64,000 nucleotides of DNA from NCBI GenBank assembly GCA_000716465.1, contig JNWL01000002.1, positions 1 through 64,000 of the forward strand, written 5' to 3'. Source of the stretch: Streptomyces bikiniensis. GTDB lineage: Bacteria > Actinomycetota > Actinomycetes > Streptomycetales > Streptomycetaceae. Position 1 is the stretch's first letter. The number at the start of each line of letters is the position of its first letter. A program made the translations under genes and the position numbers. The notes beneath the pieces were generated by a model that was given only the letters and a program-made list of their open reading frames with translations, ran no database searches and had not been told where the DNA came from. Shown here piece by piece: positions 20,161-21,183 of the stretch.

Positions 20161-21183
20161 TCAGAAGTCCCAGTCGTCGTCGGCGGTGTCCTCGGCCTTG
20201 CCCATCACGTAGGACGAGCCCGAGCCGGAGAAGAAGTCGTGGTTCTCGTCCGCCCCGGGGGACAGAGCGGCGAGGATCTCGGGGTTGACCTCGGTCTCCG
20301 TGGCGCCGAATCGGGTCGGGTGGCCGAGGTTCATCAGGGCCTTGTTGGCGTTGTAGCGGACGAACACGGCCACGTCGTCCATGAGACCGAGCGGCTCGTA
20401 GAGCTCGCCCGAGTACTGCAGCTCCAGCTCGTAGAGCTCGTCCAGCAGCGCGTCGGTGAACTCGCGCATCTCGTCCTGACCGGCCTTCGTGAGCTTCTCC
20501 AGCCCCCGCTGGTACTTGTAGCCGGAGTAGTAGCCGTGCACGGCCTTGTCGCGGAGGATCAGCCGGATCATGTCGGCCGTGTTCGTCAGCAGGGCGTGGG
20601 TGGAGAAGTGCAGCGGAAGGTAGAAGCCTGCGTACAGCAGCAGCGACGACAGGAGAGTGGAGGCGACCTTCCGCTTGAGCGGGTCGTCACCGTAGTAGTG
20701 GGCGAGGACCGTCTTGCAGCGCTGCTGGAGGACGTCGTTGTCCACCGCCCAGCGGTAGGCGGCGTCGATCTCCGGGGTGGTGGCGAGGGTGGAGAACACG
20801 GACGAGTAGCTGCGGGCGTGGACGGCCTGCATGAAGGCGATGTTGGTGTACACCGCCTCCTCGTGCTCGGTACGGGCGTCCTGGATCTGGACGATCTCCC
20901 CGACGGTGGCCTGGACCGTGTCGAGCATGGTCAGTCCCGTGAACACCCGCATGGTGAGGGTGCGTTCCTCCGGGCTGAGACGCTGCTGCCAGGCGCTCAC
21001 GTCGTTGGAGAGCGGGACCTTCTCCGGCAGCCAGAAGTTGGCGGTGAGCCGGTTCCACACCTCCAGGTCCTTCTCGTCGGTCACCCGGTTCCAGTTGACC
21101 GGGCGCAACCGTGCCAGGGGGTCGTGGCGGTAGGAGGGAGGGGTGACCGACACCTCGGTCAGCGGTGCGGGCGTGGTGGTCAT
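20161..21183 (-). CDS. nrdF: Class Ie ribonucleotide reductase radical subunit (NrdF, QSK variant)
   Basis: 340 aa, ferritin-like R2 fold. Compared with E. coli NrdF ligands (D67, E98, H101, E158, E192, H195, from memory), Asp88, His122 and His216 are kept. The three glutamates are Gln119 (FMQAVHARSY), Ser179 (TLLSSLLLY) and Lys213 (RDKAVHGYY). I checked the codons: CAG, TCG and AAG. The QSK set is the hallmark of class Ie R2, in which a DOPA radical on the tyrosine (here Tyr126) works without metal and is generated with NrdI. nrdE and nrdI are adjacent. The start at 21183 is 38 bases after the nrdE stop. Confidence 0.93.
   Translation of the reverse strand: MTTTPAPLTEVSVTPPSYRHDPLARLRPVNWNRVTDEKDLEVWNRLTANFWLPEKVPLSNDVSAWQQRLSPEERTLTMRVFTGLTMLDTVQATVGEIVQIQDARTEHEEAVYTNIAFMQAVHARSYSSVFSTLATTPEIDAAYRWAVDNDVLQQRCKTVLAHYYGDDPLKRKVASTLLSSLLLYAGFYLPLHFSTHALLTNTADMIRLILRDKAVHGYYSGYKYQRGLEKLTKAGQDEMREFTDALLDELYELELQYSGELYEPLGLMDDVAVFVRYNANKALMNLGHPTRFGATETEVNPEILAALSPGADENHDFFSGSGSSYVMGKAEDTADDDWDF

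Follow-up and report, generated by a model that had tools for sequence, protein, structure and literature searches.

Predicted cobalamin and probable iron control of a class Ie (QSK) ribonucleotide reductase operon in Streptomyces bikiniensis

The window, a 64,000 nt stretch of Streptomyces bikiniensis DNA, carries a ribonucleotide reductase (RNR) operon on its minus strand in the order nrdI-nrdE-nrdF-thiI. The nrdI and nrdE genes overlap by 4 bases, nrdE is separated from nrdF by 38 nt, and nrdF from thiI by 8 nt, an arrangement that bears out the earlier placement of nrdI and nrdE in one operon with nrdF. The preliminary description overlooked thiI, the riboswitch and the other upstream elements. 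NrdI is thus encoded together with NrdF, as in class Ie systems. There is no nrdH in the operon, and the sole NrdH-like match in the genome scores 30.8 bits against a cut-off of 85.75. Solved relatives of NrdE are 9L6O and 1PEM. The genes and leader elements are as follows.

18869..20152, minus: thiI, tRNA uracil 4-sulfurtransferase family (TIGR00342, 300.6 bits, cut-off 264.5)
20161..21183, minus: nrdF, class Ie (QSK) R2 subunit (QSK residues; nearest solved structures 8RAG/8RAH; QSK clade at 100/100)
21222..23393, minus: nrdE, R1 subunit (TIGR04170, 1190.5 bits, cut-off 750; profile match given as 21222-23399)
23390..23821, minus: nrdI, flavodoxin-like activase (TIGR00333, 158.3 bits, cut-off 74.65; PF07972)
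23822..23983, minus: leader between aptamer and nrdI, studied by alignment and folds, with purine-rich GAGAGGAG near the nrdI start
23984..24211, minus: cobalamin riboswitch aptamer (RF00174, 92.5 bits, gathering 31.5, model positions 1-189 of 189)
24207..24253, minus: NrdR-box-like inverted pair ACACAACATCT-N25-AGATGTAGTGT (8/8 operons)
24264..24281, no strand assigned: palindrome ACTTAGGTATACCTAAGT, candidate iron box (0 expected from shuffles; four core copies genome-wide, against 0 for the reversed control)

The nrdF frame is intact and encodes 340 aa. Its translation reads D88, Q119, H122, Y126, S179, K213 and H216, so that three glutamate metal ligands are replaced by Gln, Ser and Lys while the Asp, two His and Tyr are retained, exactly the residues listed in the preliminary description. 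The three replacements align onto Q143, S203 and K237 of the Gardnerella R2eQSK protein, residues named in the available text of John et al. 2025 (PMC11846895). The Gardnerella structures 8RAG and 8RAH are also the best solved relatives of the window NrdF, which is about 67% identical to Gardnerella NrdF, and together with the QSK residues they uphold the class Ie assignment made earlier. NCBIfam and database names label this protein class 1b, as do the named Streptomyces protein records for QSK NrdF. Class Ib R2 proteins carry three Glu metal ligands; the window NrdF has Q119, S179 and K213 at these positions, which rules out an ordinary class Ib metal enzyme.

The substitutions are no sequencing slip, since homologous loci carry the same residues. 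Among the best 80 NrdF loci of at least 593 stretches found in a genome-collection scan, 36 (L003-L038, three of them from Streptomyces) have Q119/K213 and 44 class Ib loci (L039-L082) have E119/E213. Over 88 NrdF rows, positions 119/179/213 read QSK in 42 and EEE in 46, and all seven active-site residues are identical in the 42 QSK rows. QSK was likewise found in 120/120 NrdF homologues among the matches listed (7997 scored). In a tree of the 88 rows, which covers QSK and EEE forms only and in which the bootstrap had not settled, a branch supported at 100/100 separates the 42 QSK rows from class Ib; the nine Streptomyces-type rows group at 87/98, under the starred level. By sequence, the window NrdF belongs to the QSK class Ie clade, where a phylogeny had been expected to place it, and by itself it adds one more member to the known QSK R2e kind.

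The available text of John et al. 2025 (PMC11846895) describes 275 QSK sequences in 266 GTDB genomes, all within four Actinomycetota orders, and gives VPK as the form found mostly in Mycoplasmatales and Lactobacillales. The preliminary description needs correcting here: according to the same text, mollicutes and streptococci have class Ie proteins of the VPK form. Words beginning with 'streptomyc' occur 0 times in the main text of that paper. The earlier remark that no streptomycete example was known does not hold, as there are database entries for S. halstedii, S. abyssomicinicus, S. sp. PTY087I2, S. nodosus and others. QSK NrdF in Streptomyces is rare and not unique, because databases hold these examples and a close NrdF (E 1e-80 or better) occurs in 6/392 sampled genomes of the genus. 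A close relative of the window genome (G015; metE 96% identical) has the same gene order around the site, without about 5.1 kb that corresponds to 19608-24701 of the window, and it keeps a 3′ remnant of thiI with stop codons. Given the shared flanking order and this remnant, the operon was probably lost in G015.

The QSK RNR is an extra enzyme in the window genome, which encodes two further RNRs, one of class Ia whose R2 has its normal ligands and one of class II that depends on B12. Each of the six QSK genomes in the genus sample carries exactly two R2 genes and, above cut-off, a class II NrdJ. The nrdAB genes of the window genome have an upstream cobalamin aptamer of their own, scoring 40.0 bits as AdoCbl-II and 34.4 bits as RF00174. 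CobI/CbiL is above cut-off in 5/6 of the QSK genomes, the miss (G152) being an assembly of 1040 contigs, which suggests from gene content that these organisms make B12. Auxotrophy for B12 is, by the same count, unsupported as the reason for the operon.

The aptamer lies 163 nt before nrdI in the window, and 171-176 nt before it in the seven remaining Streptomyces-type QSK operons that are intact (G206, G280, G277, G337, S. abyssomicinicus, S. halstedii and PTY087I2), giving a cobalamin aptamer in 8/8. The ninth Streptomyces-type locus (G152) is excluded from this count, as nrdI and nrdE are missing and the aptamer precedes a piece of metE; there (L110 6100-6110, G152:C724), metE residues 1-424 abut nrdF from residue 16 onward, reflecting either a deletion or a misassembly. 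Outside Streptomyces, an aptamer was found in 1/24 scanned QSK loci (24 of 33; L007 and L030 have no nrdI in the DNA covered), and in 0/11 scanned class Ib loci (11 of 44). The one exception, L025 from a metagenome-assembled genome labelled Acidimicrobiia, reads riboswitch-nrdIEF-metE, a gene order in which class Ie is again paired with methionine synthesis that needs no B12. The RF00174 match identifies a riboswitch-family RNA, for which ligand binding and gene control are predicted; cobalamin aptamers by themselves are no proof of repression.

Alignment and folding of the nrdI leader revealed no clear expression platform. An intrinsic terminator was considered, and three terminator-like sites were found, only one of them on the operon strand and overlapping the nrdI start; none was found upstream of that start. 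A hairpin sequestering the Shine-Dalgarno sequence appears in single folds, yet compensated pairs are seen at only 1/16. In S. abyssomicinicus (L003 2688-3211) and S. halstedii (L004 2612-3209), the nrdIEF aptamer has beside it a second one in opposite orientation, which precedes a gene of unknown function. The window also has a weak cobalamin aptamer match at 27132-27343 on the minus strand (32.2 bits, gathering 31.5). It stands before genes (25482-32661, minus strand) for an ECF-type transporter, a DUF4430 protein and a secreted protein of toroid-like fold, and the whole is perhaps a corrinoid-uptake locus.

Paired NrdR boxes stand before nrd genes, about three helical turns apart. The inverted pair upstream of the aptamer was searched in slightly loosened form, with a variable spacer, in 853,020 bases of Streptomyces-type DNA, and was found in 8/8 intact operons and nowhere else. 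The box starts are 31-32 nt apart and match the NrdR consensus at 9-12/16 positions, a score taken without a shuffle control. The window genome has a similar inverted pair in front of its class Ia nrdAB genes; none was noticed in the nrdJ region, where the best single site matches 12/16. The pair resembles NrdR boxes, and NrdR binding is predicted.

The palindrome (TTAGGTATACCTAA or a variant, with core TWAGGNNNNCCTWA) is present in 7/8 Streptomyces-type leaders and missing from that of S. abyssomicinicus. Among leaders with a detectable nrdI, the core occurs in 0/29 non-Streptomyces QSK and 0/43 class Ib cases, and 853 kb of Streptomyces-type DNA contain 18 copies of it. In the form TWAGGTNNACCTWA there are four sites in the 7.39-Mb window genome (reversed control 0). 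Three of them precede nrdIEF, a gene for a bacterioferritin-associated ferredoxin and one for a siderophore-interacting protein, and the fourth is close to tsaE. Five relatives have 12 sites of the form TTAGGTNNACCTAA: two before nrdIEF, four before siderophore-interacting-protein genes, one before a periplasmic-binding-protein gene, one near tsaE, two near DoxX genes and two near winged-helix regulators. Over the six genomes, 6/13 non-nrd sites are directly before siderophore-interacting-protein or bacterioferritin-ferredoxin genes, and 6 or 7/13 (tsaE, DoxX, winged-helix regulators) have no clear link to iron. Some copies recur in two genomes each: L196 and L207 (tsaE side), L199 and L206 (DoxX), L201 and L210 (winged-helix regulator). 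The iron box of DtxR/IdeR/DmdR has the 19-bp consensus TWAGGTTAGSCTAACCTWA, which is matched at 13/19 positions in the leaders of S. halstedii and PTY087I2 (not the window's own), while shuffled sequences give 12-13. The palindrome is a candidate iron box. Just upstream of it lies a 99-aa ORF (24289-24588, minus strand) with no Pfam or NCBIfam match; it is 34% identical to an ORF at the same place in G277 (L108 13853-14179), and small ORFs similar to it occur in L107 and L005.

The last gene of the operon encodes a protein with ThiI, THUMP and ferredoxin-like domains (PF02568, PF02926, PF22025) and a solved relative (2C5S), and it qualifies as a ThiI family member. Matches to ThiI occur in 16/392 genomes, 14 of them long, and all six nrdF-positive genomes are among the 14; the Fisher test for co-occurrence (6e-10) is only descriptive because the genomes are related. 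The gene is directly downstream of nrdF in five of the six (one of the five being the truncated G152 locus), and it also adjoins the nrdF operon in PTY087I2. In G337 it is found about 6 kb from nrdF, on the opposite flank, with no aptamer ahead. Whole-genome searches found no thiI in S. halstedii or S. abyssomicinicus, and none was found at the 33 non-Streptomyces QSK loci in the DNA covered (up to 6 kb on each side, with some stretches truncated), leaving ThiI unsupported as a general partner of class Ie. In genomes where thiI occurs without nrdIEF, it follows a cobalamin aptamer in G390 and G233, and riboswitch-metE in one of the two G092 copies; there is no aptamer at the loci of G311, G265, the other G092 copy, G298, G368 and G043. 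The operon ties a tRNA-thiolation gene to predicted B12 control.

Further along the window are genes that bypass B12, at least 16 kb away from nrdIEF.

40398..40577, plus: cobalamin aptamer before valine-degradation genes (96.1 bits)
40808..46218, plus: valine-degradation genes (methylmalonate-semialdehyde dehydrogenase, acyl-CoA dehydrogenase, 3-hydroxyisobutyryl-CoA hydrolase, 3-hydroxyisobutyrate dehydrogenase, enoyl-CoA hydratase)
46285..48680, minus: dihydropteroate synthase and a malate-synthase-like gene (malate synthase A 381.3 bits, under cut-off 594.5)
49124..51409, minus: metE, B12-independent methionine synthase (TIGR01371, 1043.1 bits, cut-off 929.95)
51618..51844, minus: cobalamin aptamer before metE (90.5 bits)
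51949..53379, minus: RamB-like regulator (593.7 bits, under cut-off 700)
53562..57148, plus: prpD-like gene, prpB and prpC of the 2-methylcitrate cycle (PrpD 846.8 bits, under cut-off 950; PrpB and PrpC above theirs)

Genes of this kind (metE, malate-synthase-like, HBD or prp) were found in the examined stretch of 8/9 Streptomyces-type QSK loci, S. abyssomicinicus having none within its 12 kb. The operon is flanked by prpC or folP and by HBD or metE in G206, G280, G277 and G152, and by metE and a malate-synthase-like gene in G337. Among sampled genomes, metE is present in 43/61. Of 18 metE loci in same-genus genomes that lack nrdIEF, some have parts of the set (two have HBD/aceB/aceA/RamB and four have the five valine genes), and nrdIEF, thiI and prpDBC occur at 0/18. 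The clustering with B12-bypass genes may in part be due to common descent, the genomes being related. At G000:C34:15203-16036 there is another, incomplete match to metE, which covers 276 residues with one TAG and is close to two further cobalamin aptamers (C34:4172-4378 and C34:16243-16472).

Since a riboswitch-family RNA and an iron-box-like palindrome precede the operon, it is likely a backup for B12 shortage and probably iron shortage. We consider it fairly probable that nrdI-nrdE-nrdF-thiI encodes a fail-safe class Ie RNR, predicted to use a metal-free DOPA radical and to be produced under shortage of B12 and probably of iron. An oxidant delivered by NrdI, probably superoxide, would hydroxylate Tyr126 to DOPA, and the ammonium group of Lys213 would fill the metal-1 place, as in the Gardnerella structures. 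Binding of B12 to the leader would lower nrdIEF expression, an iron-loaded DtxR-family repressor would bind the palindrome, and NrdR the inverted pair. With B12 present, class II NrdJ would suffice; with B12 absent and iron present, the class Ia enzyme would serve, its nrdAB genes having a cobalamin aptamer in front of them as well; with both absent, class Ie would take over. A guess for ThiI is that tRNA 4-thiouridine is made under the same conditions. The strict form of this scheme is an AND gate, in which cobalamin riboswitch and iron-dependent repressor silence the metal-free, B12-free RNR (with ThiI) until both cofactors fail; to this we give an even chance. If true, three radical chemistries (cobalt, iron and DOPA) would be deployed in ranked order, and there would be a Streptomyces-type answer to the question of when class Ie is used. 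The conditions proposed by the DNA are B12 shortage, for which the sequence evidence is strong, and iron shortage, for which it is moderate. Weighing against the scheme are the nrdI leader with no clear expression platform, the IdeR consensus scores at shuffle level, the palindrome-free leader of S. abyssomicinicus, the palindrome sites that have no clear link to iron, and the lack of nrdH in the operon, given that NrdH aided DOPA formation in Gardnerella.

A rival reading of the iron component is that the class Ie operon answers to B12 only and the palindrome is the site of some other factor or a promoter feature. The 19-bp IdeR consensus scores no better than shuffles in the S. halstedii and PTY087I2 leaders, the S. 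abyssomicinicus leader has no palindrome at all, and copies also stand near tsaE, DoxX and regulator genes; but a motif with four sites in 7.39 Mb and none in the reversed control, present in 0/72 other leaders, and placed directly before iron genes at 6/13 of its non-nrd sites, makes control by B12 only rather unlikely. Much less credible is that the R2 has lost its function or is on the way to losing it, and that chance has preserved it along with its leader. Rarity in the genus (6/392), loss from the close relative G015 and the damaged or misassembled G152 locus would fit decay, but the nrdI, nrdE and nrdF frames are intact, the seven active-site residues are the same in 42 QSK rows, and the Gardnerella QSK enzyme is active according to the available text of PMC11846895.

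Equally remote is a role in self-resistance against an RNR inhibitor made by the strain itself. Antimetabolites are among the products of streptomycetes, and an R2 that holds no metal could respond differently to inhibitors; against this, the identified genes around the loci belong to primary metabolism, transport and B12-related functions, with no biosynthetic cluster recognised among them, and a B12 switch would tie resistance to B12. The fail-safe reading is the one we retain. Its new element is a B12-riboswitch-headed, probably iron-gated class Ie operon, with regulation and chemistry predicted from the DNA. The open-access literature searched yielded no account of a class Ie operon under B12 control. 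With class II and class Ia enzymes present alongside it in this Streptomyces-type host, each prediction is open to testing one enzyme at a time.

The nearest known system is the R2eQSK of Gardnerella vaginalis/Bifidobacterium vaginale, which likewise has the QSK residues, the retained Tyr, His and Asp, and an NrdI partner. In the available text of PMC11846895, the Lys ammonium of this protein occupies the Mn1 place and metal was not observed, its Tyr is converted to DOPA upon co-expression of the operon, the DOPA form is active, and NrdH aided DOPA formation. The gene order given there is nrdHIEF, whereas the window reads nrdI-nrdE-nrdF-thiI without nrdH; thiI is absent within the fetched Gardnerella loci (L034-L036), and their leaders lack the palindrome present in the window leader. 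The VPK enzymes of Mesoplasma florum (6GP2/8BT3) and Aerococcus urinae (6EBO) have also lost metal ligands and use a DOPA radical with NrdI (available text of PMC11846895 and PMC8463856), but unlike the window operon they have Val-Pro-Lys, the order nrdFIE, and hosts in the Bacillota. Class Ib NrdIEF shares NrdI, NrdE and gene order with the window operon, but it retains the Glu ligands, three of which the window NrdF lacks, and falls on the other side of the NrdF tree. Two Bifidobacterium loci (L028, L029) have a QSK and an ordinary class Ib nrdF about 3 kb apart, with nrdI and nrdE between.

The class Ia nrdABS operon of Streptomyces reportedly has a cobalamin riboswitch, going by the title of work by Borovok and colleagues from 2006. 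It is thus also a class I RNR behind a cobalamin aptamer, as is the nrdAB of the window genome, with its similar upstream inverted pair; nrdIEF differs in that class Ia is an iron-type enzyme with normal ligands and has no TWAGGNNNNCCTWA palindrome in its 20-kb stretch. Cobalamin riboswitches have been described for metE of M. smegmatis (PMC8088520) and for the valine-degradation operon of S. griseus (PMC8914203). As far as the available text of these papers goes, class Ie RNR and thiI are not their concern, unlike the window operon, while the B12-family leaders they describe before B12-free and branched-acid genes are both represented in kind in the window.
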